In this document: positions 2,778 through 32,957 of the stretch, in pieces | Numbering within the stretch: position 1 is the first letter of the stretch | Layout of the letters: each line of letters opens with the position of its first letter | DNA from: Clostridia bacterium | GTDB taxonomy: Bacteria; Bacillota; Clostridia; Oscillospirales; Acutalibacteraceae | DNA length: 55,035 bases | Direction of reading: 5' to 3' | Assembly (NCBI GenBank): GCA_017554405.1 | Contig: JAFZIK010000025.1 | Coordinates: 1-55,035, forward strand | Made by a program: the position numbers and the translations under genes | Notes under the pieces: model-generated | What the model was told of the DNA's origin: nothing | Databases searched by the model: none | Seen by the model: only the letters and a program-made list of their open reading frames with translations

Positions 2778-2788
2778 GGTGACGCAAT

Positions 2789-4027
2789 ATGAACAAGATA
2801 ACTTGTGACGTTTGTATCGTAGGCGGCGGTCCCGCCGGATTATCTGCCGCCGTTGCCGCTAAAAAAGCCGGTGCCAAGGACGTTCTGATAGTAGAGCGTG
2901 ACGAGGCGCTCGGCGGCATTCTTCAGCAGTGCATTCACCCCGGTTTCGGTCTTAAGCTTTTTAAGGAAGAACTGACCGGTCCCGAGTATTTCGGCAGATT
3001 TGTTGACGAAGCGAATGAACTTGGAGTTAAAGCGCTTCTTAACAGCATGGTCCTTGAGGTAACCGCAGATACTGTAACCTGCATAAACGGTGAACTCGGC
3101 GTTTGCGAAATAAGCGCAAAGGCCATCGTTCTTGCAATGGGATGCAGAGAAAGAACCAGAGCAAATATAGTTATACCCGGCACCCGTCCCGCCGGCGTTT
3201 ATACGGCGGGAACCGCCCAGCGCCTTATTAACCGCCAAAACGAAATGGTAGGTAAAAAGGTCGTAATACTCGGCTCCGGCGATATCGGTATGATAATGGC
3301 GCGCCGCATGACGCTTGAAGGCGCAAAGGTCGAGGCAGTTGTTGAAATCATGGATTTCCTTGCCGGTCTTACACGAAACCGCGTTCAGTGCCTTGACGAT
3401 TTCGGCATTCCGCTTTTGCTTTCACATACAATTATAGATATCAAAGGTAACGACCGCGTTGAAAGCGTTGTAATAGCACAGGTCGATGAAAACAAGAAAC
3501 CGATCATGTCAACTGCCCGTGAGATCGAATGCGATACCCTGCTTCTCTCTGTCGGTCTTATACCCGAAAACGAGCTTACAAGCAATGCAAAAATTGAGAT
3601 CAGCCCGATAACAAAGGGACCGAAGGTAAATCAGTATATGCAGACCTCTATAAAGAGCGTATTTGCCTGCGGTAACGTTGTTCACGTTAACGATCTTGTT
3701 GATAACGTTTCCGCAGAAAGCGCAAAGGCAGGCGAAAGCGCGGCAAAATTTGCCGCCGGAAAACTTGAGGATAGCACAGCCGTTACGGTCGAGACCGGCG
3801 ATAACGTTCGCTACGTTTGCCCGCAGTCGGTTATACCTGCCGACGAGAAAGTAGACCTTTATTTCCGCGTTATGAAGCCGCAAAAAGGCGTTGTAATAAC
3901 GGTTACCGACGGTGATAACGTATTGTTTACGAGAAAAGCCATTAAGGTAAACCCCGGCGAAATGGAAAAAGCCACTGTGAGCGTTAAAGATATCACTTCA
4001 CTTATGGTATCGGTTAAGGAGGCTTAA
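2789..4027 (+). CDS. NAD(P)/FAD-dependent oxidoreductase, second subunit of the GlpA-like module
   Basis: A 412-residue pyridine nucleotide-disulfide type flavoprotein. The FAD motif CIVGGGPAGLSAA is at about residue 9 and a second Rossmann motif, VVILGSGDIGM, near residue 155. An extra domain of about 80 residues follows from residue 335 and is rich in beta-strand-like sequence. The gene starts 11 bases after the GlpA-like gene, with AAGGTG as ribosome binding site, and is followed 2 bases later by the DUF1667 gene. It probably passes electrons between the GlpA-like subunit and a nicotinamide or quinone acceptor. Such proteins are sometimes annotated as HcnB-like. Confidence 0.8.
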   Translation: MNKITCDVCIVGGGPAGLSAAVAAKKAGAKDVLIVERDEALGGILQQCIHPGFGLKLFKEELTGPEYFGRFVDEANELGVKALLNSMVLEVTADTVTCINGELGVCEISAKAIVLAMGCRERTRANIVIPGTRPAGVYTAGTAQRLINRQNEMVGKKVVILGSGDIGMIMARRMTLEGAKVEAVVEIMDFLAGLTRNRVQCLDDFGIPLLLSHTIIDIKGNDRVESVVIAQVDENKKPIMSTAREIECDTLLLSVGLIPENELTSNAKIEISPITKGPKVNQYMQTSIKSVFACGNVVHVNDLVDNVSAESAKAGESAAKFAAGKLEDSTAVTVETGDNVRYVCPQSVIPADEKVDLYFRVMKPQKGVVITVTDGDNVLFTRKAIKVNPGEMEKATVSVKDITSLMVSVKEA

Positions 4028-4029
4028 TT

Positions 4030-4386
4030 ATGACTAAAGAAATCATTTGCACCGTTTGCCCCACCGGCTGCACAATTCACGTTGAAGGTGAAAACGGTAA
4101 TATTACAAAGATCGAAGGATTCAGCTGCCCTCGCGGCAAGGTATACGCCGAGAACGAATTTACCGCGCCGGTCCGTATACTTACATCTACCGCAAAGATC
4201 AAAAACGCCAAAACCCCGCTTGTTGCGGTCAGAAGTAAGACACCCGTTCCGAAGGAGAAGCTTTTTGATTGTATGGTAGAGATCCGCAAGCTTGAACTGA
4301 CGCCCCCGGTAAACCGCGGTGACGTTTTGATCAAGAACATCTGCGACACCGGCGTTGATATTATCGCTTCCGGTGAAGTAAAATAA
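4030..4386 (+). CDS. DUF1667 cysteine-containing protein
   Basis: A 118-residue protein with CTVCPTGC at residues 7-14 and a further cysteine in GFSCPRG near residue 33. This pattern could bind an iron-sulfur cluster and matches the DUF1667 family, which regularly follows the two flavoproteins upstream. It is probably a small electron-transfer or assembly partner of that module; no direct function is established. It ends the operon, just before the terminator at 4401-4433. Confidence 0.8.
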   Translation: MTKEIICTVCPTGCTIHVEGENGNITKIEGFSCPRGKVYAENEFTAPVRILTSTAKIKNAKTPLVAVRSKTPVPKEKLFDCMVEIRKLELTPPVNRGDVLIKNICDTGVDIIASGEVK

Positions 4387-5307: not shown

Positions 5308-6114
5308 TCAAAGTTTGTAGACCTTAATTGCATTCTGCGAGAATATTTTTTTATAGTCTTCCTCGCCGAATCCGAGCGAGGTAAGAATTTGCATTTCGTT
5401 CTGAGGCGAGTGTAGCGGATAATCGGTTCCAAATAGCACGCGATCAGTGCCATATCTTTTGATTATCTCAGTAGCAGTTTCGGGTTTAATATAGGATAAA
5501 CTGGATGAGCAATCAACATAAAGATTCGGTATATCCGCCAACTGACGGGACGCATCCTCCCAGATCGACCATCCGCCGAAATGTGCGCCAATGACCGTAA
5601 GCCCGGTATAGATTTTAAGGATCGGTATAAGTCTGTTGGGATTTGAAAAATCATATCTGTAATCCCCCGCATGCAAAAGTAACGGCAGGCCGTCACGCTC
5701 ACAAAGCTCATAAATTTTAAGACAGCGGTAATCGTCTATCTTAAAACCCTGGATATCCGGATGAAGCTTTATGCCTTTTAAACCGAGCGATTTTAGATGC
5801 TCAAAATCGCCGGGGATATCGTCAGACTCCGGGTGCATTGTGCCAAGCCCGTAGAGGGTATCACTGTTTTCAGAAACCTCACGCGCTATGAATTCGTTAA
5901 TCTTGCGCACCTGGGCTTTTGTAGTGGCGACCGATTGAACGATAAACCTGTCTACACCCGCCTTTTTACCGTTTTCTATAAGGTCGGCAACTGTCCCTTT
6001 GCCGTAAGGCATTTCACCGTAAAAATTGCCGGTTGCCTTTGCCGCCTTTTCTGCTATTGCCTCAGGGTAAACGTGGCAATGTGCATCAATAACGTAAAAC
6101 TTATTATCTACCAT
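5308..6114 (-). CDS. Amidohydrolase family 2 (TIM-barrel metal hydrolase)
   Basis: A 268-residue metal-dependent hydrolase of the amidohydrolase_2 family, which also includes decarboxylases. DAHCHVYP at residues 10-17 gives the HxH metal ligands. KLHPD, LLHAGDYR, GAHFGG and the terminal FGTDYP supply the later histidines and the aspartate. Its ATG overlaps the stop of the upstream ligase fusion (TAATG), so the two are translationally coupled. It is the last gene of the operon led by the T-box at 10015-10287. The substrate is unknown; the context suggests a small acid or acyl derivative. Confidence 0.8.
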   Translation of the reverse strand: MVDNKFYVIDAHCHVYPEAIAEKAAKATGNFYGEMPYGKGTVADLIENGKKAGVDRFIVQSVATTKAQVRKINEFIAREVSENSDTLYGLGTMHPESDDIPGDFEHLKSLGLKGIKLHPDIQGFKIDDYRCLKIYELCERDGLPLLLHAGDYRYDFSNPNRLIPILKIYTGLTVIGAHFGGWSIWEDASRQLADIPNLYVDCSSSLSYIKPETATEIIKRYGTDRVLFGTDYPLHSPQNEMQILTSLGFGEEDYKKIFSQNAIKVYKL

Positions 6115-8631: not shown

Positions 8632-10014
8632 TTATGCCTCCTCGTAGAGAATCTTATTGAGCGCGCTTATGTATGCGCGGATGCTTGCGCCGATTATATC
8701 GGTTGAAAGCCCTTTTCCGGAGTATAGTTTGCCGCCTGAGCGAAGTTTAACAAGCGCACTGCCCATCGCCTCGTGACCCTCAGTGATAGACTGTATCTGA
8801 AAATCATCAAGCTCAAAGTGGCGACCGGTTATCTGTTCTATCGTGCGGAAAGCGGCATCGATAGGACCGTCACCCACCGAAATGCCGGTATACGTAACGC
8901 CATCCTTGATCATATTGATCTGGGCGGATGACGTCATAACGTTTCCGGACTGAATGGAATACTGATCGAGCGTATAGACGGGTTCGACCTGCAGAGCCGT
9001 TGAAGCGATGATTGCTTCCATTTCCTTAAGTGATACGTTCTTTTTATTAGCAATACGCTTAAATTCGGAGTAAACCTTTTTAATATCCTCATCACTGAGA
9101 TCGTAACCGATTTTAAGCGCCGCCGCGCGGACCGCATCAATATCATCGTCAACATCAAGCGATATTTCGCCGGCATCTGCCTTTGTATCAGCTTCGTTTT
9201 CATCTTTATCGCCGGATATTATCCATTCAATACGCGAAAGTATTGTATTTGACGAAGTAAAATCAATATTTGTGGTAAGACCGGCGTGGAATTTTGATGT
9301 TCGGAAAATCTCGATAGCCGTCATAAGTCCTGTAATATCACCGCCTACGCAGGTTTTTACGATATCAGCACCTTTTCTTAAAACAGCAAATGATGATGCG
9401 GCTGCCATACCGGTCGCATCGGAACAGCAAATACCGAATAAAATACCGTCGACGCCTTGAACACCTGTGCGAACGTTAGATACAAAGTCAGCCATTTCAT
9501 CCGGAAACAGCATACCCTCGTTATCATAAAGCGTTACCGCTTTGGCACCGGCATCTACCGCGGCGTTAAGTATATCTGTAAGCGTTTTTATATCTGCTCT
9601 TGTTGCGTCCAGCGCGCAAAACTCAATATCGCCGCATTTTGCTGCGGCATACTTCACAAGTTCACCGGCAAGTTTTGTCATTGCCGGACCTTTTTTATGA
9701 AAACCGTATTCCATGCCAACGTCGGAAACGGGCAATGAAATGCGTATTCTCGGGCATTTTGCCGAAGCGAGTGCCGCGGCGACTAAATCTATTTCACCCT
9801 CGGAGGTTCCGCCCTCAACAGATAATACAGTAGATTTTACTGAGGAAGCGATCGTTTTTATAAGTAAAACGTCCTTTGCCTCACTCGCTATTTTCGGCAG
9901 TTCGATAATATCGACCTTTAGTTTTTCAAGCTGTCTTGCAATTTCGATAGATTCTTTAAACCCGAATACTTTGCTCCTGTTAAGCGTTGTGTCGGCAACA
10001 AAAATTGTTTTCAT
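8632..10014 (-). CDS. LeuA-like protein with degenerate catalytic barrel and intact LeuA regulatory domain
   Basis: A 460-residue homologue of 2-isopropylmalate/citramalate synthases. The C-terminal LeuA dimer (allosteric) domain, about 370-455, is well kept (YTGISVGDGPIDAAFRTIEQ). The barrel has lost the usual active-site residues. The canonical DTTLRDGEQ reads DTTLNRSKV (8-16), the EDATR glutamate reads LDATR (135-139), and the HxHND metal site reads GICCSDATG (194-202). The protein is therefore probably not a working synthase. It may bind leucine or a 2-oxoacid as a sensor or partner, or catalyse a different reaction. It is the first gene of the operon behind the T-box at 10015-10287, with ribosome binding site GAGGT. 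Confidence 0.8.
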   Translation of the reverse strand: MKTIFVADTTLNRSKVFGFKESIEIARQLEKLKVDIIELPKIASEAKDVLLIKTIASSVKSTVLSVEGGTSEGEIDLVAAALASAKCPRIRISLPVSDVGMEYGFHKKGPAMTKLAGELVKYAAAKCGDIEFCALDATRADIKTLTDILNAAVDAGAKAVTLYDNEGMLFPDEMADFVSNVRTGVQGVDGILFGICCSDATGMAAASSFAVLRKGADIVKTCVGGDITGLMTAIEIFRTSKFHAGLTTNIDFTSSNTILSRIEWIISGDKDENEADTKADAGEISLDVDDDIDAVRAAALKIGYDLSDEDIKKVYSEFKRIANKKNVSLKEMEAIIASTALQVEPVYTLDQYSIQSGNVMTSSAQINMIKDGVTYTGISVGDGPIDAAFRTIEQITGRHFELDDFQIQSITEGHEAMGSALVKLRSGGKLYSGKGLSTDIIGASIRAYISALNKILYEEA

Positions 10015-10287
10015 ATTTTTACCTCACATAAAAGAATAGTCCCCGAAGCCAAACGGCTTCGGGGACGAATAAAATTCGCGGTACCACCCCGATTGCAGAA
10101 ATATCTGCCACTCGGAAGGCTCATACAAGCCCTTTGCTATGATAACGGTGCATGCCGTAACCTCTTACTCAGTTCGGAAGTTCTGCTCGGGAATGAGACT
10201 TTTTTGAAACTCTGCTATCGGCTTGCACCAAACGCCGACTCTCTGAAGCGATCGTTACAAAAAATAGTTCCTTCAACGCATTTAACA
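10015..10287 (-). promoter_or_regulatory. T-box leader 1, upstream of the LeuA-like/ligase-fusion operon
   Basis: Stem I has AGAGAG followed by a TCGGC...GCCGA hairpin with the GTTTGGTGCAA loop. The T-box GGGGTGGTACCGCG is at 10077-10090 and the terminator hairpin at 10039-10066. The UGGU bulge would pair with a tRNA ending ACCA. By the same alignment that gives AUC and GUA in the other two leaders, the specifier position (10182-10184) reads AGA. That is not a branched-chain codon, so the cognate tRNA is unresolved. Confidence 0.9.
10032..10066 (-). terminator. Intrinsic terminator of T-box leader 1
   Basis: GTCCCCGAAGCC pairs with GGCTTCGGGGAC around GTTT, followed by TATTCTTTT on the minus strand. 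It competes with the antiterminator containing the T-box. Confidence 0.85.
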
Positions 10288-10293
10288 AATGGT

Positions 10294-10322
10294 AGTATAG
10301 CACATAGATTCTAATATTGCAA
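10294..10322 (-). promoter_or_regulatory. Promoter of T-box leader 1
   Basis: TTGCAA (10317-10322), 17-base spacer, TATACT (10294-10299) on the minus strand. It starts just after the ilvE stop, so this operon can be transcribed independently of ilvE. Confidence 0.7.
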
Positions 10323-10330
10323 GTATTATT

Positions 10331-11395
10331 TTAACCGATCATGTAGGTCCAGCCGAATTTATCCTCGGTTTTGCCCCACTGAATACCGGTAAGGGTATCG
10401 TAAAGATGCTGGGTGACCTCGCCGATCTTACCTTTATTTATGATAAACTTGTTATCCTTATAGTTAAGCTCGCCGATCGGAGAAACAACTGCGGCTGTTC
10501 CGCAACCCCATGCCTCTTCAAGCTTGCCGCTTTCAAGCGCCTCTTCAAGCTCATCAACGCTGATCCTGCGCTCTTCAACCTTATAACCCTCGCTCTTTAA
10601 CACCTCAATGCAGGATTTGCGGGTTATGCCGGGTAGAATTGAACCAAGCAAAGCGGGCGTTACTATAACGCCGTCAATCTTGAACATAACGTTCATAGCG
10701 CCGACTTCTTCAATGTATTTACGCTCAACACCGTCAAGCCAAAGGACCTGCGAATAGCCCTTATCCTCGGCGCGTTTACCCGCTCGGTTGCTCGCGGCAT
10801 AGTTACCGCCGCATTTTGCCTCGCCGGTTCCGCCGCGAACTGCGCGGACGTCCTCCGATTCAATCATAATGCGGACCGGATTTATACCCTCTTTATAGTA
10901 ACTGCCAACAGGTGAAGCGATGATGATATAAGTAACGTTCTTGACCGAGTGAACGCCGAGCGTTTCATCATTACCGAACATAAAGGGGCGCAGATAAAGG
11001 GACGTGCCGGGCGCGGAGGGTGTCCAATCCTTTTCCACCTCAACAAATTTTGTAAGCGCTTCAAGAGCGTCATCCTCCGGTATCTGCGGCAGGCACATAC
11101 GGTCGGCGGATCTGTTCATTCTGCGGATGTTTTCCATAGGTCTGAAGAGCTGAACCTTACCGTCGGCACGGCGATAAGCCTTTAAGCCCTCAAATATTTC
11201 GGAACCGTAGTGAAGCACCGTAGACGCAGGATGCAAAGTAATGTTTGAAAACGGCACTATGCGTGCATCTTTCCAGCCTTCGCCCTCAACGTAATCCATA
11301 ATAAACATATGGTCAGTGAAGTATTTGCCGAATCCTAAAGCCGAAACGTCCGGCTTCTGCTTCGGGCTATTTGTGAGTTTAACTGTAATATTCAT
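10331..11395 (-). CDS. ilvE: Branched-chain amino acid aminotransferase
   Basis: A class IV PLP aminotransferase of 354 residues, long type II form. The PLP lysine is K194 in GTGEAKCGGNYAAS. FEGLKAYR (68-75) and the C-terminal GCGTAAVVSPIGEL, which binds PLP phosphate, are present. It interconverts Val, Leu and Ile with their 2-oxoacids using glutamate/2-oxoglutarate. It lies 12 bases downstream of the 2-oxoacid oxidoreductase genes, with AAGGAGG before the ATG. It would aminate the oxoacids made by that complex, or supply oxoacids if the flux runs the other way. It is the last gene of the operon led by T-box 2. Confidence 0.93.
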   Translation of the reverse strand: MNITVKLTNSPKQKPDVSALGFGKYFTDHMFIMDYVEGEGWKDARIVPFSNITLHPASTVLHYGSEIFEGLKAYRRADGKVQLFRPMENIRRMNRSADRMCLPQIPEDDALEALTKFVEVEKDWTPSAPGTSLYLRPFMFGNDETLGVHSVKNVTYIIIASPVGSYYKEGINPVRIMIESEDVRAVRGGTGEAKCGGNYAASNRAGKRAEDKGYSQVLWLDGVERKYIEEVGAMNVMFKIDGVIVTPALLGSILPGITRKSCIEVLKSEGYKVEERRISVDELEEALESGKLEEAWGCGTAAVVSPIGELNYKDNKFIINKGKIGEVTQHLYDTLTGIQWGKTEDKFGWTYMIG

Positions 11396-11407
11396 AAAAC
11401 TGCCTCC

Positions 11408-11941
11408 TTAATTCTCATAGCCGATTTTAATGGCTTTAAGATTGATATCAAGCATATCGGGATGTTTTGCGGAAACGACCTTTTTAAGCGCCGCAATAAC
11501 CGTTTCTTCATCATATTCGCCGGTTTCTTTGAGTATCTTACCGATAATTATCATATTGGCAAGTTTGCCAACGCCGTTTTCATCGGCAAGCTTGGTCGCG
11601 GGTATGTAAAACACCTTAACGTCGCTTCTCGTTACTTTGCGCTCAATGAGCGAGGAATCGGCAAAAATAATGCCACCCGGGACAACGCTGTTTTCATATC
11701 TGTCAAGAGAAGGTAAATTCATCGCGATAAGAACGTCCGGCGTTGAAACGATTGGCGAACCGACCGGCTCATCGCCGATAATAACGCTGCAGCTTGCGGT
11801 GCCGCCGCGCATTTCAGGACCGTAGGAAGGAAGCCAGCTTACCTGCTTATCCTCAATAAGGCCCTTATATGCGGCAAATTTTCCGGCAAAGAGTATACCC
11901 TGACCGCCGAACCCGGCAAATAAATACTGAGTTGTTTTCAT
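11408..11941 (-). CDS. 2-oxoacid:ferredoxin oxidoreductase, gamma subunit
   Basis: A 177-residue protein of the POR/KOR gamma family. The start, [16 protein letters not shown], and [18 protein letters not shown] (39-56) are typical. It is one subunit of a complex that interconverts a 2-oxoacid and CoA with an acyl-CoA, CO2 and reduced ferredoxin. Its ATG overlaps the stop of the beta-subunit gene (ATGA), as expected for equal subunit synthesis. Subunit sizes and order match the 3-methyl-2-oxobutanoate (VOR) type. The neighbouring ilvE supports branched-chain substrates, although aromatic or pyruvate use is not excluded from sequence alone. Confidence 0.88.
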
Positions 11942-12693
11942 ACAAGTCTCTCCCCCTTTGCCGAACGGTCCTTATAAACGCCGAGCGGATAATAAGGTAT
12001 CATTTTCTCATCTATCCATTTAAGAGCATTTTGCGGAGTAAGACCCCAGTTGGTAGGACAGCTTGAGATGACCTCAATAAGAGAAAAGCCTTTGTTTTCG
12101 ATCTGATTCTGAAAAGCCTTTTTGATAGCTTTTTTTGCGGCGTTAATATTCTTAATGTTATTAACGGCAACGCGCTCGATATATTCAGCGCCGTCAAGCT
12201 CGGAAAGCATTTCACAGACCTTTACCGGAAAACCGCAGAGCTTAACGTCCCTGCCGTATGGGGAAGTCTGCGTTACCTGACCGGGAAGCGAAGTTGGTGC
12301 CATCTGACCGCCGGTCATGCCGTAAATGGCATTGTTAATGAATATAACAGTAATATTTTCATTGCGCGCCGCCGCGTGAACGGTTTCAGCCATACCGATA
12401 GACGCAAGGTCTCCGTCACCCTGATAGGTAAACACGATCTTGCTCGGATCGGCGCGTTTAACGCCTGTAGCGACCGCGGGCGCACGGCCGTGAGCTGCCT
12501 CGATCATATCGCAGTTAAAATAATCGTATGCCATAACCGAGCAACCGACCGGAGCGATACCGATAGTTTTGCCCTCGATACCGAATTCATCGATAGCTTC
12601 GGCAACAAGGCGGTGAACTATGCCGTGGGTGCAACCCGGGCAATAGTGGAGCGGAACGTCCGCCAGCGCTTTTGGTTTATCGAATACTACCAT
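11938..12693 (-). CDS. 2-oxoacid:ferredoxin oxidoreductase, thiamine diphosphate-binding beta subunit
   Basis: A 251-residue TPP-binding subunit. The motif runs from GDGDLASIG near residue 96 to the NNAIYGMTGGQ segment near 123. The entry LHYCPGCTHGIVHRL is typical of VOR/KOR beta chains. It binds thiamine diphosphate and carries out decarboxylation, or carboxylation in reverse. The start overlaps the alpha-subunit stop by one base (TAATG). It lacks the C-terminal extension of pyruvate-specific enzymes, in line with a four-subunit VOR-type complex. Confidence 0.88.
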   Translation of the reverse strand: MVVFDKPKALADVPLHYCPGCTHGIVHRLVAEAIDEFGIEGKTIGIAPVGCSVMAYDYFNCDMIEAAHGRAPAVATGVKRADPSKIVFTYQGDGDLASIGMAETVHAAARNENITVIFINNAIYGMTGGQMAPTSLPGQVTQTSPYGRDVKLCGFPVKVCEMLSELDGAEYIERVAVNNIKNINAAKKAIKKAFQNQIENKGFSLIEVISSCPTNWGLTPQNALKWIDEKMIPYYPLGVYKDRSAKGERLV

Positions 12694-13760
12694 TATTTCT
12701 CGCCTCCATTTGCTGCTTCTTCAATGCTTGCAAGAACCTGATCCGGAAGAGGTATCATACCGCCAACACGGTTGCAAAGCATATATTTTGCTTTGCATTC
12801 GGTTGCAAGCTTAACGTCCTCTATCATCTGACCCATAGAAAGCTCAACACTGATAAAGGCATGAATCTTCTCCGCCGCCTTTTTGAATACGTCCTTCGGG
12901 AACGGCCAAAGAGTTATAGGTCTTATCATACCTGCCTTAATACCATTAGCGCGTGCGGCGTTGATTGCGTTTTTGGATACGCGCGCGGCGATACCGAAGG
13001 CTGCAACGCATATCTCGGCATCATCCATAAGGTATTCTTCAAACATTACCTCGTTTGCTTCGACCTGTTCGTATCTCTTAAAGCGATCAAAGTTTACCTG
13101 TTCAAGCTGTTCGGGTTTAAGATATAAAGAGTTGATTATATTATGCTCGCGCTTGTTATCGGTTCCTGTAGTTGCCCATGGCTTTTCAGGCGCCGGCTCG
13201 ACCTTTAATGATTCAAGGTCAACCGGTTCCATCATCTGACCCATTGTTCCGTCGGCTAAAATCATTGCCGTCATCCGGTATTTATCGGCTGTATCAAATG
13301 CCTTGACCGTAAGTGAAGCCATTTCCTGAACCGAAGCCGGAGCGTAAACCACCATATGGTAATCGCCGTGACCGCCGCCGCGGGTAGCCTGAAAATAATC
13401 CGACTGCGAAGGCTGAATACCGCCAAGACCCGGACCGCCGCGCTGAACGTTAACAACGAACGCCGGAAGGTCGGCGCCGGCAAGATAAGATAAGCCCTCA
13501 CTTTTAAGCGAAATTCCCGGGCTTGAAGATGAAGTCATAACGCGTTTACCCGCACTTGATACGCCATAAACCATATTTATTGCGGCGATCTCACTTTCGG
13601 CCTGCAAAAAGGTGCCGCCGATTTTTGGCATTTTTTTTGCCATATATGCCGCGACCTCTGTTTGAGGGGTTATAGGATATCCGAAATAATGGCGACAGCC
13701 GGCAATAATTGCCGCCTCGGCTATTGCTTCGTTACCCTTCATCAAAACTTTATCAGCCAT
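12693..13760 (-). CDS. vorB: 2-oxoacid:ferredoxin oxidoreductase, alpha subunit (VorB-like)
   Basis: A 355-residue alpha subunit. KGNEAIAEAAIIAGCRHYFGYPITPQTE near the start, FLQAESEIAAINMVYG and GGPGLGGIQPSQSDYFQA place it in the VorB/KorA group. Such chains are usually named 3-methyl-2-oxobutanoate dehydrogenase subunit VorB. It lies 8 bases after the ferredoxin-like delta subunit and overlaps the beta subunit. With the other subunits it would link branched-chain 2-oxoacids and acyl-CoA esters through ferredoxin. Naming of VOR subunits differs between databases, so only this chain is given a symbol. Confidence 0.88.
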   Translation of the reverse strand: MADKVLMKGNEAIAEAAIIAGCRHYFGYPITPQTEVAAYMAKKMPKIGGTFLQAESEIAAINMVYGVSSAGKRVMTSSSSPGISLKSEGLSYLAGADLPAFVVNVQRGGPGLGGIQPSQSDYFQATRGGGHGDYHMVVYAPASVQEMASLTVKAFDTADKYRMTAMILADGTMGQMMEPVDLESLKVEPAPEKPWATTGTDNKREHNIINSLYLKPEQLEQVNFDRFKRYEQVEANEVMFEEYLMDDAEICVAAFGIAARVSKNAINAARANGIKAGMIRPITLWPFPKDVFKKAAEKIHAFISVELSMGQMIEDVKLATECKAKYMLCNRVGGMIPLPDQVLASIEEAANGGEK

Positions 13761-13768
13761 ATTACACC

Positions 13769-13984
13769 CTACCTTTCTACCTTAATAATGCAATCGGGAC
13801 ACATGGTTGCGCAAAAAGCGCACCCGATACAATCTTCCGGGTTCACAGCCTCTACCGGGTGGTGACCCTTTTTATTGATCTTTTCGGCAGATAACGTAAG
13901 GACCTTTTTAGGGCAAACGTCAACGCATAGCCCGCAACCCTTGCAGTTATCGGTTTTAAAGGTTAATTTCGGCATATTCAGCAC
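13769..13984 (-). CDS. 2x[4Fe-4S] ferredoxin-type delta subunit of the 2-oxoacid oxidoreductase
   Basis: A 71-residue protein with two classical cluster motifs, CKGCGLCVDVCP and CIGCAFCATMCP. It is the delta subunit that carries electrons between the TPP centre and soluble ferredoxin. It overlaps the end of the P-loop ATPase gene by 7 bases and precedes the alpha subunit. Confidence 0.9.
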   Translation of the reverse strand: MLNMPKLTFKTDNCKGCGLCVDVCPKKVLTLSAEKINKKGHHPVEAVNPEDCIGCAFCATMCPDCIIKVER

Positions 13985-14652
13985 TCCTTTTTTAAAAGTG
14001 ATTTTTGCATTTTAAGTTTAAATCCGTTATCGATTTTACCGGAAAGTTCCGTAGAAAGCCTTTCATCATACGAAGTAAACGCGATCGGTATTTTCATAAT
14101 ATCCGATATGCTCTTTGCATATGCAAGCGAGTCAATAACAGTGTTTGAATCGGTATCATCGCCTAAATTTGAGTTATTAACTATCGCGGTAAACGGAATA
14201 CCGCCGGCGAATTCGATCTCACGTAGGACCTCTACTGTAGAATCGGTATCCCTGGTGAGCGGTCTGTATTTGTTGATCACGGCAAGCATCTCATAGTTAT
14301 TCTCTTTAATTATGGCAGGCGCCAGTCTGCCAAGTGCTAGTGCGCCGCGATCATCGCCGCCTATATCAAGGACAAAATTACTTGATCTATCATCGGTTAT
14401 CGCATACATACGGTCTGGCAACGCCGGAATATCAAGATTTGATCCTGCATAATCTGAACAGATCAGTTCGATCCCCATAGCTTTTAACTCGTCTACACTG
14501 TCCTTTGTTCTGAAATAAGGATTAACGATATCGAGGTCGGCTATCGAGACCTTTTTGCCCTGAGCCTTTAAGTTGTATGCAATATTAAGAGCTACGTTTG
14601 TTTTACCGCTGCCGTAATGACCGCAAACTATTGTAATCCGTTTAAACTCCAT
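13978..14652 (-). CDS. MinD/ParA-like P-loop ATPase within the 2-oxoacid oxidoreductase operon
   Basis: A 224-residue deviant Walker-A ATPase. CGHYGSGKTNVALNIAYNL near the N-terminus is the P-loop, DLDIVNPYFRTKD follows it, and VLDIGGDDRGA near residue 95 is the Walker B-like segment. Start chosen at the ATG preceded by GGTGAG; a GTG three codons upstream is the alternative. The gene is embedded between the ligase and the ferredoxin subunit and overlaps the latter. Relatives in this superfamily load iron-sulfur clusters or metals (NBP35/CooC-like) or position proteins. A maturation role for the iron-sulfur enzyme is a reasonable guess. There is no CxxC cluster-binding motif. Confidence 0.75.
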   Translation of the reverse strand: MEFKRITIVCGHYGSGKTNVALNIAYNLKAQGKKVSIADLDIVNPYFRTKDSVDELKAMGIELICSDYAGSNLDIPALPDRMYAITDDRSSNFVLDIGGDDRGALALGRLAPAIIKENNYEMLAVINKYRPLTRDTDSTVEVLREIEFAGGIPFTAIVNNSNLGDDTDSNTVIDSLAYAKSISDIMKIPIAFTSYDERLSTELSGKIDNGFKLKMQKSLLKKEC

Positions 14653-14665
14653 AAAACTCACCGTA

Positions 14666-16951
14666 TCACAGTTTGTTTCGCTGTATTTTACCGCTTATGG
14701 TCTTCGGCAGTTCATCCCTAAACACAACGATTCTCGGATACTTGTAGGGCGCAGTCTTTGATTTAACGTAATCCTGGATCTCTTTCTTTAATTCCTCGGT
14801 CGGCTCCTTACCCTTTACAAGAACAATACTCGCCTTTACAACCTGACCGCGTATCGGGTCGGGAGAGGCTGAAACGCCGCATTCAAGAACGTAAGGAAGT
14901 TCCATAATAACGCTTTCGATCTCAAACGGCCCTATGCGGTAGCCGGAAGATTTTATAACGTCATCAACACGACCGACATACCAGTAGAAGCCGTCCTCAT
15001 CGCGCCAGGCGGTATCGCCGGTGTGATAGTAGCCGTCGCGCCAGGTCTCATCGGTCTTTTCCTTATCACCGTAATAACCGACCGCAAGACCGCAAGGCAG
15101 GTCGTTTTTGATATTTATAACAATTTCGCCGGTCTCGCCGGTGGGAACTGAATTACCGTCCGGATCAACTATATCAACGTCATAGATCGGAGCAGGTTTG
15201 CCCATTGAACCGATCTTATGCGGCGCACCGCGCAGATTGCCTATTATCATTGTGCTCTCTGTTTGACCGAAGCCCTCGAGTATGCTTAAACCGGTCGCTT
15301 TTTTAAACTGGCGGTAAACCTCGGGATTAAGCGCTTCGCCCGCCGTAGTCATATGCTTTATCGAGGAAAGATCGTATTTTGAAATATCCTGCTTAACCAT
15401 CATACGAAGCATTGTAGGCGGCGCGCAGAAGGTTGTAATATTATATTTTTTGAACATTGGGAGAATATCCGCCGCGTCAAAACGGTCAAAATCATAAACG
15501 AAGGTTGCCGCCTCACACAGCCACTGGCCGTAAAGCTTGCCCCACATCGCCTTTGCCCATCCGGTATCCGAAATGGTAAAATGCAGACCGTCAGGATCAA
15601 CGTTATGCCAATACTTTGCCGTATGGAAATGACCGAGCGGATATTTATGGTTATGGGTAGCGATTTTAGGATAACCGCTTGTGCCGGAGGTAAAATACAT
15701 AAGCATCAGATCATCACCGCAAGGCGAATCTTCTGTGCGTTCATAATGCGAACGGTAAACCTCAAACTCTTCGTTAAAGTTGCGCCAGCCCTCACGGGTG
15801 CCGTTAACTATAAGCTTATGTTCAAGCTGCGGACACTTTGCCGCGGCAATATCGACCTGATGAGCGGTATCGCCGTCCGCGGTGCAGACTATCGCTTTAA
15901 CGCCGGCGGCGTTGAATCTGTATTCAAAATCGTGTTCCTGGAGCTGATTTGTTGCAGGTATGGCAATAGCACCGAGCTTATTAAGCGCCAGCATACAAAA
16001 CCAAAACTGATAGTGGCGTTTAAGCACCAGCATTACCTTATCTCCCTTGGTGATACCAAGCGATTTGAAATAGTTGGCGCAGCGCGCCGATGACCTTTTC
16101 ATATCGCCGAAGGTGAATCTGTGCTCGCTTTTATCCTTGCCAATATAAAGCATGGCAAGTTTATCGCGCTGTTTTTCGCCGAGGACATCAACAATATCAA
16201 AAGCAAAATTGAATTTTTCGGTGTTTTTAAACTTAATTGAAACAGGCGTGCCGTTCTCATTCTTCTCAACGTCGATAAACTGATGATACAAGCGTTTCTT
16301 TGTATCAAATTTAACAGGCGTGGCGGCAGTCAGTTCACTGCCTGTAAGCTCCGGTATAGGATCACCGGTTGGATTGAGGACAATGGCATAAAACAAGCAA
16401 TCCTCACCGCCTACGGCTATCATACCGTGCGGAGTGGAGCTATCGTAATAGATAGTATCCCCTGCCGATAATACCTCGGTGTGATCGCCGACCTGGACCT
16501 TTAACATACCGGAAATAACTATATCGCACTCCTGACCCTTGTGGGTAGTAAGTTCTATGGCGCGGTGCTGTGCCTCTTCGCTGTAAATACTCTTAACGTA
16601 AAGCGGTTCGGCAATACGCCTGCGAAACGCGGGAGCCAGATTATAATATGTCATACCGTGGGCGTTATCAATACGCTGACCGGCGCCGCGGCGGGTAAGC
16701 GTATATGAGCGGAGCGTAGGACTGTGACCTTCGATAATATCGGTAACGTCTACACCGAACGCACCGGCGCAACGGTAAATAAAGGCAAAATTAAGATCAG
16801 TTTTGCCGTTCTCCGCATCGATATACTCTTTTTCGGTAACGTCGGTCTTTTCTGCCATTTGCGCAGTTGTTAAACCGACGATCTGGCGAAGCTCTTTAAT
16901 ACGCGCCGCCATCTCGTGGATCTTATAATCAAGACCGGTCATTTTTTCCAC
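14666..16951 (-). CDS. XRE-cupin-acyl-CoA synthetase fusion (behind the Val-type T-box)
   Basis: A three-part protein of 761 residues. Residues about 15-65 form an XRE-type helix-turn-helix (RIKELRQIVGLTTAQMAEKT). Residues about 125-190 form a cupin (HKGQECDIVISG to STPHGMIAV). From about 235 to the end is an AMP-dependent acyl-CoA synthetase with YFTSGTSGYPKIATHNH, GFGQTES, YHTGDTAWRDEDG and the catalytic lysine in KTISGKIQRNKL. The start is GTG, 7 bases after GGGGG. It is the first gene after T-box 2, whose specifier reads GUA (Val), and is followed by the ATPase, the oxidoreductase and ilvE. Isobutyrate is a reasonable substrate guess. The DNA-binding and cupin parts may sense a ligand and regulate transcription. 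Confidence 0.88.
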   Translation of the reverse strand: MEKMTGLDYKIHEMAARIKELRQIVGLTTAQMAEKTDVTEKEYIDAENGKTDLNFAFIYRCAGAFGVDVTDIIEGHSPTLRSYTLTRRGAGQRIDNAHGMTYYNLAPAFRRRIAEPLYVKSIYSEEAQHRAIELTTHKGQECDIVISGMLKVQVGDHTEVLSAGDTIYYDSSTPHGMIAVGGEDCLFYAIVLNPTGDPIPELTGSELTAATPVKFDTKKRLYHQFIDVEKNENGTPVSIKFKNTEKFNFAFDIVDVLGEKQRDKLAMLYIGKDKSEHRFTFGDMKRSSARCANYFKSLGITKGDKVMLVLKRHYQFWFCMLALNKLGAIAIPATNQLQEHDFEYRFNAAGVKAIVCTADGDTAHQVDIAAAKCPQLEHKLIVNGTREGWRNFNEEFEVYRSHYERTEDSPCGDDLMLMYFTSGTSGYPKIATHNHKYPLGHFHTAKYWHNVDPDGLHFTISDTGWAKAMWGKLYGQWLCEAATFVYDFDRFDAADILPMFKKYNITTFCAPPTMLRMMVKQDISKYDLSSIKHMTTAGEALNPEVYRQFKKATGLSILEGFGQTESTMIIGNLRGAPHKIGSMGKPAPIYDVDIVDPDGNSVPTGETGEIVINIKNDLPCGLAVGYYGDKEKTDETWRDGYYHTGDTAWRDEDGFYWYVGRVDDVIKSSGYRIGPFEIESVIMELPYVLECGVSASPDPIRGQVVKASIVLVKGKEPTEELKKEIQDYVKSKTAPYKYPRIVVFRDELPKTISGKIQRNKL

Positions 16952-17242
16952 TTTAATTCCCCCTTAGGGCAAAAACAAAACTCGCCCCAAAGCTAAAATA
17001 CTTTGAGACGAGTAATAATTTACCCGCGGTACCACTCAAATTGCAAACCGAACGGTTTACCTCTTTAGGGTCCAATAACCCCTATGCATTTACGCAGCAA
17101 TCACGGGAAGGTTCTACTTATCAAAATTGACTTTCTTCCTTCCGGCTTCGAAGTTACAGCATACGGGTCGGTTATGGGCTTGCACCAAACGCCCACTCTC
17201 TTGAAACTTAAACCGGACGCCCTCTTCATCATCGCCTTTGAC
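16952..17242 (-). promoter_or_regulatory. T-box leader 2, predicted Val-responsive
   Basis: Stem I has AAGAGAG and a TGGGC...GCCCA hairpin with the GTTTGGTGCAA loop. The specifier loop reads GUA (17155-17157) followed by ACUUCGAAG. The T-box GAGTGGTACCGCGG is at 17024-17037, and the terminator follows. A basal stem CCGGTTT/AAGCCGG closes Stem I. The UGGU bulge fits a tRNA with discriminator A. Confidence 0.9.
16967..17012 (-). terminator. Intrinsic terminator of T-box leader 2
   Basis: CTCGTCTCAAAG pairs with CTTTGGGGCGAG (two G-U pairs), followed by TTTTGTTTTTG on the minus strand. Confidence 0.85.
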
Positions 17243-17248
17243 CTATGC

Positions 17249-17277
17249 ATTTTAGCACATTGAGATTAAATTGTCAA
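17249..17277 (-). promoter_or_regulatory. Promoter of T-box leader 2
   Basis: TTGACA (17272-17277), 17-base spacer, TAAAAT (17249-17254) on the minus strand. It lies only 7 bases beyond the stop of the upstream paralogue. Confidence 0.85.
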
Positions 17278-17284
17278 GAATAAA

Positions 17285-19555
17285 TCACAGTTTATTTCTC
17301 TGTATTTTTCCGCTTATGGTCTTCGGCAGTTCATCCCTGAAAACAACTATTCTCGGATACTTATAAGGCGCAGTTTTAGATTTAACGTAATCCTGGATCT
17401 CTTTTTTTAATTCCTCGGTCGGCTCCTTGCCCTTTACAAGAACAATACTCGCCTTTACTACCTGACCGCGTATCGGGTCGGGAGCGGCTGAAACGCCGCA
17501 TTCAAGAACGTAAGGAAGCTCCATAATAACGCTTTCGATCTCAAAAGGTCCTATGCGGTAGCCGGAAGATTTTATAACGTCATCAACACGACCGACATAC
17601 CAGTAGAAGCCGTCCTCATCGCGCCAGGCGGTATCGCCGGTGTGATAATATCCGTCGTGCCATACTTCCGCCGTGCTGGCGGCGTCGTTATAATAACCCA
17701 TAAACAGTCCGCAAGGAGTGCCGTTTGCTGTTTTGATAACTATCTCGCCGGTCTCGCCGGAAGGAACGCTGTTACCGTCCGGATCAAGAAGATCAACGTC
17801 ATAAAGCGGGGACGGCTTGCCCATAGAACCGATCTTATGCGGCGCACCATGCAAGTTGCCGATCGACATTGTGGTTTCGGTCTGACCGAAGCCCTCCATG
17901 ATTTTAAGACCGGTTGCCTTTTCAAACTGTTTATATACTTCGGGATTAAGGGCTTCGCCCGCCGTAGTCATATGCTTGACCGAAGAGAGATCATACTTTG
18001 AAATATCCTCTTTTATCATCATACGAAGCATTGTAGGCGGAGCGCAAAACGTTGTTATGTTATGCTCTTTAAACATCGGCAAAATATCAGCGGCGGAAAA
18101 TCTATCAAAATCATATGTAAATACCGCGCCCTCGCAAAGCCACTGACCGTATAATTTACCCCAAAGCGCCTTGCCCCAACCGGTTTCTGAAATCGTAAAG
18201 TGCAGACCGTCCGGGTCAACGCCGTGCCAATACTTAGCGGTTATGTAGTGACCAAGCGCATACTTGTAATTATGAACGGCGATCTTAGGATAACCGGTAG
18301 TGCCGGAAGTAAAGAACATTATCATGGGATCGTTACCGCAGGCGGTATCATCATCCCTGTAAAAATGCGCGCTGTAAAGCCCGAATTCCTCATCGAAATT
18401 ATGCCAGCCGTCGCGTGCACCGCCTACAATGATCTTAAGTTTAACGCCGGGGCAATGCTCGATCGCTGCTTCGGCATGAGCGGCGACCTCGCCGTCCGCC
18501 GTGCAGACTATCGCCGAAACGCCGGCGGAGTTAAAGCGATAATCAAAGTCATGCTCCTGCAAAAGGTTTGTTGCCGGTATCGCGATAGCGCCGAGTTTAT
18601 GAAGCGCGAGAATCGAAAACCAGAACTGGTAATGGCGCTTGAGCACGAGCATTACCCTATCGCCTTTTTTGATGCCGAGTGATTTGAAATAGTTGGCTGT
18701 CTGCGCTGAATAGCGCTTCATATCACGAAAGGTGAACCTGCGCTCTACTTTGTTTTTATCAATATGCAGCATTGCAAGCTTCTGCGGTTTGTTTCTACCT
18801 AACTCATCAACGATATCAAAGGCAAAATTGAACTTATCCTCATCCTTAAAGGATATCTTTTGAAGTCGGCCCTTATCATCCTCAACGGTATCGATGAACT
18901 TTGAAGAAACGTAGCCGCCCGGCTGTTTCTTATGCGGGAATATATACGGCTCAAGAATTTTATCCTTTTCGCTCTCTTCGCCGGGCATAACAATAGCCGC
19001 AAACAGGCAGTCGTTACCGTCAACAGCGATCATACCGTGCGGGGTCGAGCTGTTGTAGTAAATACTGTCGCCCTCATTCAAAAGCTCGGTATGTTCGCCG
19101 ATCTGGACCTTAAGTTTGCCTTTAAGAACTAGATCGAACTCCTGTCCGGAATGCTTTGTAAGGTGGATCGGCTTATCCTGAAGCGACGCATCATAAGAAT
19201 ACCGGACCCAATACGGCTCGGCGATCTTTTTATCAAAAAACGGTGCAAGGTTTTGAATCTCAATTCCGCTTTCCTTGGCGGTCGTTTGTCCCATACCCTT
19301 ACGGGTCACGGTATATGAGGAAAGGTGCGCGCTTTCACCCTCAAGCAGATCGGTTATACCGATACCGAAAACCTGAGAGCACTTATGAATGAATGTAAAC
19401 GGAAAATCAAGCTTACCCTGTTCATACTTAATGTACTCATACAAAGTAACCTCTGTTTTCTTTGCCATATCTTCTACTGAAATGCCCGATATTTCGCGCA
19501 TTTCCTTAATACGAAAGGCAATTTCCATAAGCTTGTTTTCGGATACAACAGCCAT
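17285..19555 (-). CDS. XRE-cupin-acyl-CoA synthetase fusion (behind the Ile-type T-box)
   Basis: Paralogue of the gene at 14666-16951 with the same three parts: helix-turn-helix (about 10-65), cupin (about 125-190) and acyl-CoA synthetase (about 230 to the end). TSGTTGYPKIAVHNY, GFGQTETT and the lysine in KTISGKIQRNKL are intact. The last 123 residues differ from the paralogue at one position, while the N-terminal 200 residues look only about half identical. That contrast points to gene conversion. I take the ATG that follows AAGGAG by 8 bases as start; an upstream GTG lies in the ribosome binding site. It is the only gene between T-box 3 and T-box 2. The Ile specifier suggests 2-methylbutyrate as substrate. 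Confidence 0.88.
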   Translation of the reverse strand: MAVVSENKLMEIAFRIKEMREISGISVEDMAKKTEVTLYEYIKYEQGKLDFPFTFIHKCSQVFGIGITDLLEGESAHLSSYTVTRKGMGQTTAKESGIEIQNLAPFFDKKIAEPYWVRYSYDASLQDKPIHLTKHSGQEFDLVLKGKLKVQIGEHTELLNEGDSIYYNSSTPHGMIAVDGNDCLFAAIVMPGEESEKDKILEPYIFPHKKQPGGYVSSKFIDTVEDDKGRLQKISFKDEDKFNFAFDIVDELGRNKPQKLAMLHIDKNKVERRFTFRDMKRYSAQTANYFKSLGIKKGDRVMLVLKRHYQFWFSILALHKLGAIAIPATNLLQEHDFDYRFNSAGVSAIVCTADGEVAAHAEAAIEHCPGVKLKIIVGGARDGWHNFDEEFGLYSAHFYRDDDTACGNDPMIMFFTSGTTGYPKIAVHNYKYALGHYITAKYWHGVDPDGLHFTISETGWGKALWGKLYGQWLCEGAVFTYDFDRFSAADILPMFKEHNITTFCAPPTMLRMMIKEDISKYDLSSVKHMTTAGEALNPEVYKQFEKATGLKIMEGFGQTETTMSIGNLHGAPHKIGSMGKPSPLYDVDLLDPDGNSVPSGETGEIVIKTANGTPCGLFMGYYNDAASTAEVWHDGYYHTGDTAWRDEDGFYWYVGRVDDVIKSSGYRIGPFEIESVIMELPYVLECGVSAAPDPIRGQVVKASIVLVKGKEPTEELKKEIQDYVKSKTAPYKYPRIVVFRDELPKTISGKIQRNKL

Positions 19556-19846
19556 ACTTTTCACTCCTTAATAAAAAACAACACCCGTCTCAAAACTTTG
19601 AGACGGGTGAAAAACATCCGCGGTACCACTCAAATTGCAAACCGAAAGGTTTGCCTCTTTAGGGTCTAATAACCCCTATGCCTTTACGCAGCAATCACGG
19701 GAAGCATCTACTTGAGGTCATACCTCTTTCGGGCAACCGGCTCGGAAGTGATTGGCAATATAGAACCGCGTTATCGGCTTGCAGCAACCGCCGACTCTCT
19801 GAAAACGCGAAAACTAAACCGTCTTCGTCACAGCCTTTAAAATTGT
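19556..19846 (-). promoter_or_regulatory. T-box leader 3, predicted Ile-responsive
   Basis: Stem I has CAGAGAG and a TCGGC...GCCGA hairpin with the GTTGCTGCAA loop. The specifier loop reads AUC (19750-19752) followed by ACUUCCGAG. The T-box GAGTGGTACCGCGG is at 19618-19631, then the terminator. From the segment CGTGATTGCTGCG onward it is nearly identical to leader 2, while Stem I differs. Confidence 0.92.
19573..19609 (-). terminator. Intrinsic terminator of T-box leader 3
   Basis: CACCCGTCTCAAAG pairs with CTTTGAGACGGGTG across a short T-rich loop, then TTGTTTTTTATT on the minus strand. Confidence 0.88.
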
Positions 19847-19852
19847 TAATTG

Positions 19853-19881
19853 ATTATAACACCGAATAACCGGTTTGTCAA
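19853..19881 (-). promoter_or_regulatory. Consensus promoter of T-box leader 3
   Basis: TTGACA (19876-19881), 17-base spacer, TATAAT (19853-19858) on the minus strand: a perfect sigma-A promoter. It starts 13 bases after the clpX stop. Confidence 0.9.
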
Positions 19882-19894
19882 GTGAAAATAAGAG

Positions 19895-21127
19895 TTAACC
19901 GGCCTCGGCAAACCTGCTTTCCACCATATCAGCGGTGATGTTAATACTCTTAACGGTCTTATCGGAAGGCGTATTGAACATAAGATCAAGCAAAACCGAT
20001 TCAATTATCGAACGCAATCCGCGAGCGCCTGTCTTTCTTGCAATGGTCAAATCAGCAATTTTTTCAAGCGCCGCATCATCAAAAGTAAGCTCAACGCCGT
20101 CAAGCCGGAAAAGCTCGGTATACTGCTTAATAATCGAGTTTTTAGGCTCGGTCATAATACGCACAAGTGTATCTTTATCCATTGGCGCCAGCGCGGTAAT
20201 GACCGGAAGTCTGCCTACAAGCTCGGGGATCAAGCCGAATTTAACAAGGTCCTGATGAGTTGCCATCGCCGCGAGCGATTCGGCTTCAATACTTTTAGGC
20301 GACTTAACGTCGGCGCCGAAGCCCAAACTGCTTCCGCCGATTCTGCGCTCAATGACCTTGTCTATACCGTCAAAGGCACCAGCACAAATAAACAGTATAT
20401 TCGTTGTATCTATCTGAATAAACTCCTGCTGCGGGTGCTTTCTGCCGCCCTGCGGCGGAACGTTTGAAACGGTGCCTTCAAGTATTTTAAGCAACGCCTG
20501 CTGAACGCCTTCACCGCTCACGTCGCGTGTGATTGAAGCGTTCTCGGATTTACGCGCTATCTTATCGATCTCATCAACGTAGATAATACCGTGCTCCGCT
20601 TTATCAATATCGTAATCAGCTGCCTGGATAAGGCGAAGAAGAATATTTTCAACGTCCTCGCCAACGTAACCTGCCTCGGTAAGGGTTGTTGCATCGGTGA
20701 TCGCTATCGGAACGTCAATGATCTTGGCAAGTGTTTGTGCAAGAAGCGTTTTGCCAACACCGGTAGGGCCGAGCATAAGAACGTTGCTCTTTGAAATCTC
20801 AACGTCGCTGTCTCTACCCGCGTAAACGCGCTTATAATGATTATAGACTGCAACGGCAAGCGTTTTCTTGGCTTCATCCTGACCGATCACGTATTCATCG
20901 AGCTTTTCTTTTATCTCGGCGGGCGTAGGAAGAACGCTGTTTTCTTTTTTATCGGCCTTTTTGTTTGCCGTGCGGTAGGCGTTTTCATCCTCAAAGAGCA
21001 ATGAATTGCAGTAGCTTATGCAACTGTCGCAAATATAAACGCCCGGGCCTTCAACAAGCCGCGTTACCTCATCCTGTGTTTTACCGCAAAAGGAACACTT
21101 TATATCATCTTTTATATCTTTAGGCAT
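19895..21127 (-). CDS. clpX: ATP-dependent Clp protease ATP-binding subunit ClpX
   Basis: The AAA+ unfoldase that feeds substrates to ClpP, 410 residues and full length. The zinc-binding N-domain has C11, C14, C33 and C36. Walker A is GPTGVGKT near residue 118, the pore loop GYVGED lies near 154, Walker B is YVDEIDKI, and the C-terminal arginine-sensor segment KTGARGLRS is present. It starts 4 bases after clpP, and the pair is the usual Firmicutes tig-clpP-clpX order. No terminator is visible after it, so read-through into T-box 3 is possible. Confidence 0.97.
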
Positions 21128-32912: not shown

Positions 32913-32913
32913 G

Positions 32914-32952: not shown

Positions 32953-32957
32953 CAACT

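Follow-up and report, generated by a model that had tools for sequence, protein, structure and literature searches.

A T-box-controlled locus of a Clostridia bacterium predicted to make branched-chain amino acids from branched short-chain acids

How might a bacterium without recognisable ilv and leu routes make its valine, isoleucine and leucine? The question is raised by a locus of a Clostridia bacterium (assembly GCA_017554405.1), which we have analyzed in a window of 55,035 nucleotides (the whole stretch of DNA under study, contig JAFZIK010000025.1). Three operons on the minus strand each begin with a T-box leader and each encode an acyl-CoA ligase, here called LigI, LigV and LigL for isoleucine, valine and leucine respectively. 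T-boxes turn genes on when charged tRNA is short. The Ile operon is a leader followed by LigI. The Val operon has the order leader, LigV, a P-loop ATPase, a ferredoxin open reading frame (ORF), the alpha, beta and gamma subunits of a 2-oxoisovalerate:ferredoxin oxidoreductase (VOR) and the aminotransferase IlvE, and the Leu operon comprises a leader, a LeuA-like protein (pseudo-LeuA), LigL and an amidohydrolase. An original prediction, made from the sequence of the window, had read positions 10015..19881 as a branched-acid salvage pathway. The three ligase genes that it listed are all present, but that of LigL (6114-8627) lies outside the interval. The prediction had made no mention of the LeuA-like gene at the head of the Leu operon, of the additional N-terminal domains in all three ligases or of the distinct codons of the leaders. 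We put at roughly 0.86 the probability that the locus is a regulon that senses tRNA and supplies branched-chain amino acids through the reductive carboxylation of isobutyrate, 2-methylbutyrate and isovalerate.

The Rfam T-box model RF00230 was run over 18 kb with cmscan. It finds all three leaders on the minus strand, where the original prediction had claimed them (10015-10322, 16952-17277 and 19556-19881). The Leu leader scores 122.6 bits (E = 3e-27), above the Rfam gathering score of 93. The Val leader (92.3 bits, E = 2e-19) and the Ile leader (88.0 bits, E = 3e-18) fall slightly below that score and were seen in an E-value search. All three match the model over its full length (1-219), from Stem I to the antiterminator, and contain the T-box sequence UGGUACCGCG and a competing terminator. 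Each leader is flanked by a promoter-like site on one side and by an intrinsic terminator on the other (Table 1). The -35 elements of the promoter-like sites start at 10322, 17277 and 19881, which are the interval ends given in the prediction, and at the leader 3' ends are the first three of the terminator-like sites that the scan lists in 9900-20000, with folding z values of -7.7, -5.8 and -5.3. By raw count the scans yield 27 promoter-like sites vs 16.7 in shuffled sequence, and 12 terminator-like sites vs 12.5, so it is the position and strength of the sites that count and not their number.

The specifier codon was read as the triplet located 1 base before the 3' strand of the lower helix of Stem I. 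It is AUC (Ile) ahead of LigI, GUA (Val) ahead of LigV and CUC (Leu) in the leader of the LigL operon, i.e. a different codon for each ligase operon. The genome has eight T-boxes, seven of which had both gene and codon read, and one (L008, 50.8 bits) was left out. Four of the seven served as controls. Read by eye these gave UUC for pheS, AAC for asnS, ACC for thrS and UGG for a trpB-like gene, all four fitting the gene. A codon script applied to the same leaders was right for one, wrong for one and left two unread; the by-eye values were used. Codons settled by eye were UGG for L005, GUA for the second ligase of L119, AUC for L077 and CUC for L206.

The genome is a metagenome-assembled genome of 1.67 Mb that is 97.5% complete. 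Profile searches of it gave no match to ilvC, and ilvD was not found. The best ilvB score was 26.5 bits against an acetolactate synthase cut-off of 538. The leuC search returned nothing but a 651-amino acid (aa) aconitase, and that for leuB a single PF00180 gene beside the aconitase, probably encoding isocitrate dehydrogenase. No second LeuA was found at 1e-20, and the models searched show no catalytic leuA. The best scores for cimA and ilvA were 49.8 bits (cut-off 450) and 17.8 bits (cut-off 379, with one ilvA model). The weak cimA score comes from a 468-aa HMGL-type ORF beside the aconitase that may be a citrate synthase. A genome of the same genus (99% complete) is likewise without ilvC, ilvD, leuC, cimA and ilvA. 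The original prediction had named a complete ilvBCD pathway as evidence against it; ilvB, ilvC, ilvD, leuB and leuC were all not found in the genome searches. As far as can be read from its genome, the locus is the only recognisable system for branched-chain amino acid biosynthesis in this organism.

The gene content of the Val operon is that expected of isoacid carboxylation, where an acyl-CoA ligase, a 2-oxoacid:ferredoxin oxidoreductase and an aminotransferase occur together. The VOR is a four-subunit set (alpha, beta, gamma and ferredoxin) in one operon. The predicted VOR-type enzyme and ilvE are both borne out by matches above cut-off for VorB and IlvE (Table 1), while the beta and gamma subunits score below theirs. 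This context suggests that the VOR acts on branched 2-oxo acids in the reductive direction. The CbiA/ParA-like ATPase, to which PHROGs gave a weak ParA-like match only, adjoins VOR in the cassette-bearing relatives compared, and the gene order of the locus is conserved across many genera.

In the proposed pathway isobutyrate, 2-methylbutyrate and isovalerate excreted by neighbours would be imported from the surroundings and activated to acyl-CoA by dedicated ligases, LigV leading to valine, LigI to isoleucine and LigL to leucine. The single shared VOR, expressed from the Val operon together with IlvE, would run in reverse, taking acyl-CoA, CO2 and reduced ferredoxin to the 2-oxo acids, which IlvE would then aminate. 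Since each ligase operon has its own T-box, antitermination should allow it to be read through the terminator only when the matching tRNA-Val, tRNA-Ile or tRNA-Leu is uncharged.

Which acids would the ligases use? In LigI and LigV the AMP-binding domain is preceded by HTH_19 and Cupin_2 domains, giving a fusion of helix-turn-helix (HTH), cupin and ligase. The best NCBIfam match of both is MbcS (NF047394), with 442 and 422 bits against a cut-off of 850. Assignment as MbcS equivalogs was therefore rejected, and we describe them as MbcS/Macs-like only. According to the available text of PMC10026030, MbcS is active on 2-methylbutyrate and isobutyrate and poorly on isovalerate. It differs in that it serves fatty acid synthesis, whereas LigI and LigV are fused to HTH-cupin domains and lie behind T-boxes. 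The nearest solved structure of a fusion ligase is 3ETC (626.8 bits), the Macs protein of Methanosarcina acetivorans, for which 2-methylbutyrate is given as the preferred acid in the part of PMC10455477 consulted. Macs shares the GWGK motif of LigI; it is archaeal and the match has no HTH-cupin half. The ligase domains of LigI and LigV are thus closest to enzymes for 2-methylbutyrate and isobutyrate, in keeping with the predicted branched-acid ligases, the exact acids given here being inferred ones.

Positions discriminating LigI from LigV were defined by a different residue in more than 85% of LigI (n = 93) and of LigV (n = 70). Eleven of the 13 fall within residues 12-118, and only 464 and 479 are in the catalytic domain. 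Residue 464 belongs to a GW(G/A)K motif. It is Gly in LigI (98%), in a small Ile clade (11/11) and in 3ETC, and Ala in LigV (100%) and in the 4-hydroxybutyrate ligase 8biq. We take this residue to line the acyl pocket, corresponding to Val310 of acetyl-CoA synthetase, on which a literature search gave nothing. Ala464 of LigV would fit a smaller pocket for a C4 acid.

If the codon labels the ligase, the two should agree in relatives. We drew a family sample of 150 genomes evenly from a larger group; 91 of them have a ligase match with E of at most 1e-60, and neighbourhoods were taken for part of these. A further sample of 80 loci came from a database scan with at least 591 confirmed relatives. 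Together these gave 174 distinct near-full-length fusion ligases, and a T-box was found in the 420 bases upstream of 157. The codon could be read in 154 (142 by script and 12 by eye), three leaders running off the stretch. There were 94 AUC and 60 GUA or GUC codons (four GUC), all of which fit the ligase clade. On a FastTree tree of the ligases bearing 150 codon labels (91 Ile and 59 Val) the amino acid changes once, dividing clades of 70 (Val), 93 (Ile) and 11 (Ile) tips. Four codons read later agree with their clade, and exchanges between GUA and GUC preserve the amino acid. Among 53 tandem LigI-LigV pairs a T-box precedes LigV in 44, the codon always being one for Val (by-eye reading in a single case). 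Nine have none; six of these have gaps of at most 110 bases and read like one operon, and in three the gap is 285, 338 or 364 bases. The proposal of one ligase per amino acid is supported in that the codon tracks the ligase clade. The eleven ligases of the third clade (L069, L071, L074, L076, L077, L081 and L083-L087) have an Ile T-box wherever the codon was read. They have no VOR within the stretch examined, and some are in genomes that keep ilvC.

Across the 150 family genomes the fusion ligases go with loss of the ordinary route. ilvC is absent in 29 of 42 genomes with a fusion ligase vs 36 of 108 others (p = 1e-4, a descriptive value because the genomes are related). The same 29 also lack leuC, and none without ilvC has leuC, whole or as a fragment. 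Unfused ligase relatives have no comparable link with ilvC (34/49 vs 38/59). The 34 genomes with pseudo-LeuA include 33 with a fusion ligase, 29 without ilvC and 31 without leuC. This set was taken from 40 matched genomes after excluding G043, G044, G059, G112, G119 and G126, whose weak two-piece matches of 31-46% identity were taken for ordinary LeuA.

The 13 fusion-ligase genomes that keep ilvC are informative. In five (G003, G040, G088, G108 and G138) LigI is directly followed by the ATPase, VOR and ilvE, with no LigV beside it. ilvA and cimA are both absent from four of these (G040, G088, G108 and G138). One or other is present in the remaining eight ilvC-positive fusion genomes, and in 22/22 hand-picked control genomes with ilvC and no fusion. 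Furthermore, leuC is present in G003, G040 and G108, which have neither pseudo-LeuA nor LigL; in G088 and G138 leuC is absent and both pseudo-LeuA and LigL occur. The pattern in these five genomes indicates that arms are kept where the ordinary route is broken, with the exception of the Ile arm of G003.

We are a little less confident of the leucine arm than of those for Val and Ile. Pseudo-LeuA retains the LeuA_dimer domain (PF08502, 106 bits) and is of the same sequence family as LeuA, the 2-isopropylmalate synthase. It differs in that the DTTLRDGEQ, HxH and NGIGERAGN motifs are lost from all 10 aligned pseudo-LeuA sequences, as is a portion of the linker. These motifs are intact in the canonical relatives L213, L214 and L216, the comparison excluding L217 (wrong frame) and L215 (start missing). 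DTTLRDGEQ and NGIGERAGN are presumably catalytic and HxH presumably a metal ligand. Conservation is highest in the C-terminal regulatory domain, with a mean top-residue share of 0.80 vs 0.61 elsewhere (n = 10). A working 2-isopropylmalate synthase was rejected in view of the lost motifs and the failure to find leuB and leuC. A leucine-binding regulator would be the simplest reading of this protein.

Upstream of pseudo-LeuA in 19 family genomes, 14 leaders were readable and 14/14 carry CUC; one further T-box (G092) was unread. In the database-scan loci 18 have a T-box, and the 16 that could be read are all Leu (11 CUC and 5 CUG), two being unread. The codons of this second set were read by eye from short segments, and some of its loci are from organisms of the family-genome set. 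LigL also occurs apart from pseudo-LeuA. In six of 15 such loci it has a Leu T-box (four CUC and two CUG), so that the link to leucine is carried by the ligase itself. The TIM-barrel half of LigL has lost a WDIHHP motif in this lineage; the motif is kept in three stand-alone relatives aligned, and in relatives without pseudo-LeuA. An Amidohydro_2 protein closes the Leu operon in several relatives too, and the proposed route has no step needing it.

A number of observations weigh against salvage of branched acids as the function of the locus. LigI and LigV score far under the MbcS cut-off, and 17 of the 174 fusion ligases have no T-box in the 420 bases upstream. Leaders are tied to their genes by descent, so the codon agreements are not independent tests. 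The absences of biosynthetic genes are those of one metagenome-assembled genome and, for ilvC, ilvD, leuC, cimA and ilvA, one genome of the same genus, with a single ilvA model. G003 has ilvA as well as LigI with VOR, and three pseudo-LeuA genomes (G056, G133 and G148) have both ilvC and leuC. The VOR family also works oxidatively. In the leucine arm, there is no T-box before pseudo-LeuA in four of the 19 family genomes (G022, G027, G056 and G075), nor in 12 of 30 upstream regions from the database scan (two further loci have no upstream DNA). Nine of the 15 LigL loci without pseudo-LeuA show none, one of these having 281 bases upstream. LigL is of a different ligase family from LigI and LigV, without an assigned substrate, and is found also in genomes with ilvC and leuC. 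It is therefore the Leu T-box that points to isovalerate as the putative acid of this arm.

These points must be weighed with four other explanations. The ligases could provide isobutyryl-, 2-methylbutyryl- and isovaleryl-CoA as primers for branched-chain fatty acids, VOR and IlvE only balancing the pools. Both fusion ligases have MbcS as their best match, and in Staphylococcus aureus this enzyme supplies fatty acid synthesis, according to the sections of PMC10026030 available. Yet an amino-acid-specific T-box heads each ligase operon, ilvE and VOR lie inside the Val operon, five ilv and leu genes were not found in the genome, and LigI with VOR is retained in the four genomes missing ilvA and cimA. 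We consider a role in lipid synthesis very unlikely. The organism might alternatively import its branched-chain amino acids, leaving the locus as a minor acyl-CoA recycling system. The genome is small and without the canonical genes, and transporters lay outside the searches made. However, none of the seven T-boxes read in it leads a transporter, and the gene order is kept over many genera with three matched tRNA sensors, making import highly improbable as the explanation. VOR is usually taken to be an amino acid-degrading enzyme, so that IlvE and VOR might oxidize valine, isoleucine and leucine to acyl-CoA for energy. But this would set T-boxes, which activate genes at a shortage of charged tRNA, over a breakdown pathway; the AMP-forming ligases spend ATP to make acyl-CoA, counter to the flow, and the known biosynthetic genes are missing. 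A catabolic VOR was rejected on the basis of the T-boxes and absent ilv and leu genes, and we regard breakdown as extremely unlikely.

Salvage might also be confined to the Val and Ile arms, with the Leu operon doing other work for leucine such as regulation or different chemistry. The separate family of LigL and its presence in genomes with leuC would suit this, as would the lack of an obvious step for pseudo-LeuA or the amidohydrolase in a carboxylation route. Against this, LigL without pseudo-LeuA has its own Leu T-box in 6/15 loci, pseudo-LeuA has no catalytic motifs, and leuC is absent in 31/34 of the genomes that carry it. As searches of the organism itself turned up neither leuB nor leuC, leucine needs another source. 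We think a two-arm pathway unlikely. Overall, the predictions that could be tested in sequence favour salvage of branched acids through three arms, while the dead LeuA paralogue had been left unexplained in the original prediction.

Both the HTH-cupin halves and the dead LeuA with its retained regulatory domain may add a second, ligand-based control, which is more speculative. In 20/20 loci (L218-L237) picked for a ligase match that lacks the N-terminal part, or is split from it by a stop, the sequence immediately before the ligase matches HTH-cupin (34-49% identity), with an Ile T-box (AUC) ahead of six. The fusion thus appears to have come from the joining of an operon pair, the separate HTH-cupin and ligase genes still being present in relatives. 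Each arm might have two layers of control, a T-box plus a protein sensor coupled to the ligase. In LigI and LigV the HTH-cupin half would be a BirA-like enzyme-regulator responding to the branched acid, its adenylate or the amino acid, and the dead LeuA a sensor of free leucine controlling the adjacent isovalerate ligase. We offer this scheme tentatively and consider it rather doubtful.

Table 1. Features of the locus and their positions in the window.
Feature	Position	Strand	Basis or remark
Promoter-like site of Ile operon	19853..19881	-	TTGACA-17-TATAAT, TG before -10; 12/12 hexamer matches
Ile T-box leader	19596..19840	-	Specifier AUC at 19750-19752; RF00230 match
Intrinsic terminator, Ile leader	19582..19609	-	Folding and terminator scan
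LigI, HTH_19 + Cupin_2 + AMP-binding acyl-CoA ligase fusion, 759 aa	17285..19564	-	Predicted acid 2-methylbutyrate
Promoter-like site of Val operon	17249..17277	-	11/12 matches, TG before -10
Val T-box leader	17001..17241	-	Specifier GUA at 17155-17157; RF00230 match
Intrinsic terminator, Val leader	16980..17013	-	Folding and terminator scan
LigV, HTH + cupin + AMP-binding ligase fusion, 761 aa	14666..16951	-	Predicted acid isobutyrate
CbiA/ParA-like P-loop ATPase	13978..14661	-	Domain match; VOR neighbour in relatives too
VorD-like ferredoxin ORF, 71 aa	13769..13984	-	Two CxxCxxCxxxCP clusters (by eye); place conserved
VorB/alpha subunit, 2-oxoisovalerate:ferredoxin oxidoreductase	12693..13760	-	NF005507, 538 bits (cut-off 399)
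VOR beta subunit (thiamine pyrophosphate-binding)	11938..12693	-	Beta-type match, under cut-off
VOR gamma subunit	11408..11941	-	Gamma-type match, under cut-off
IlvE branched-chain aminotransferase	10331..11395	-	NF009897, 494 bits (cut-off 307)
Promoter-like site of Leu operon	10294..10322	-	9/12 matches, TG before -10
Leu T-box leader	10058..10285	-	Specifier CUC at 10195-10197; RF00230 match
Intrinsic terminator, Leu leader	10039..10066	-	Folding and terminator scan
Pseudo-LeuA, LeuA paralogue without catalytic motifs, LeuA_dimer kept	8632..10014	-	Domain match and alignment
LigL, TIM barrel (AP_endonuc_2) + AMP-binding ligase fusion, 837 aa	6114..8627	-	Predicted acid isovalerate
Amidohydro_2 protein, final gene of Leu operon	5308..6114	-	Domain match

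Some other features were seen along the way. At 32826-33027 of the window there is a tRNA-Leu(UAA) gene and, after it, a Gut-1 small RNA (RF01706, 74 bits). At 1341-4386 consecutive genes encode an FAD oxidoreductase, a pyridine nucleotide oxidoreductase and a DUF1667 protein, an arrangement similar to that of a glycerol-3-phosphate oxidase operon. Elsewhere in this small genome a T-box with a Trp codon (UGG) precedes the trpB-like gene (L005, G000:C16).

That rumen bacteria require isoacids was recognised in the 1960s, and papers of Allison, Bryant, Robinson and Peel from 1962-1971 reportedly describe branched-chain amino acids made by isoacid carboxylation in these organisms. The available text of PMC7356843, citing Allison and others, reports that rumen bacteria make leucine, isoleucine and valine from isovalerate, 2-methylbutyrate and isobutyrate respectively, the same pairing as proposed here. 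The setting is alike too, in that 42 of the 80 database-scan relatives have a herbivorous mammal in the record title. What differs is that a gene set with three dedicated ligases and tRNA control is proposed here, in Clostridia that for the most part are uncultured and many of which have Oscillospiraceae or Ruminococcaceae as their title. The locus resembles known T-box regulons of amino acid genes, where the leader codon matches the amino acid of the gene product (PMC2494555, main text). None of acyl-CoA, isobutyrate, ketoisovalerate, ferredoxin and cupin is mentioned in that main text. A reconstruction of amino acid synthesis in gut bacteria lists ilv and leu variants and scores 699 genomes as Leu, Ile and Val auxotrophs; isobutyrate and carboxylation are not mentioned in its available text (PMC9026213). 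Our literature search, with subscription journals mostly outside it, returned no paper on such a gene set, on a logic of one ligase per tRNA, on T-box-controlled isoacid ligases or on a dead LeuA, and nothing relevant on HTH-cupin-ligase fusions. The chemistry is known; its genetic and regulatory embodiment was not found in the literature searched and appears new.

The locus offers an explanation at the level of genes for the branched-acid requirement of many rumen bacteria. The T-box codon acts as a built-in label of the amino acid served by each ligase, and the gene set can be tested enzyme by enzyme. It could reclassify genomes, as carriers of the locus would fall among the auxotroph calls in the available text of PMC9026213. 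The finding would bear on cross-feeding, on the feeding of isoacids to ruminants, and on the culturing of uncultured Clostridia with branched acids.

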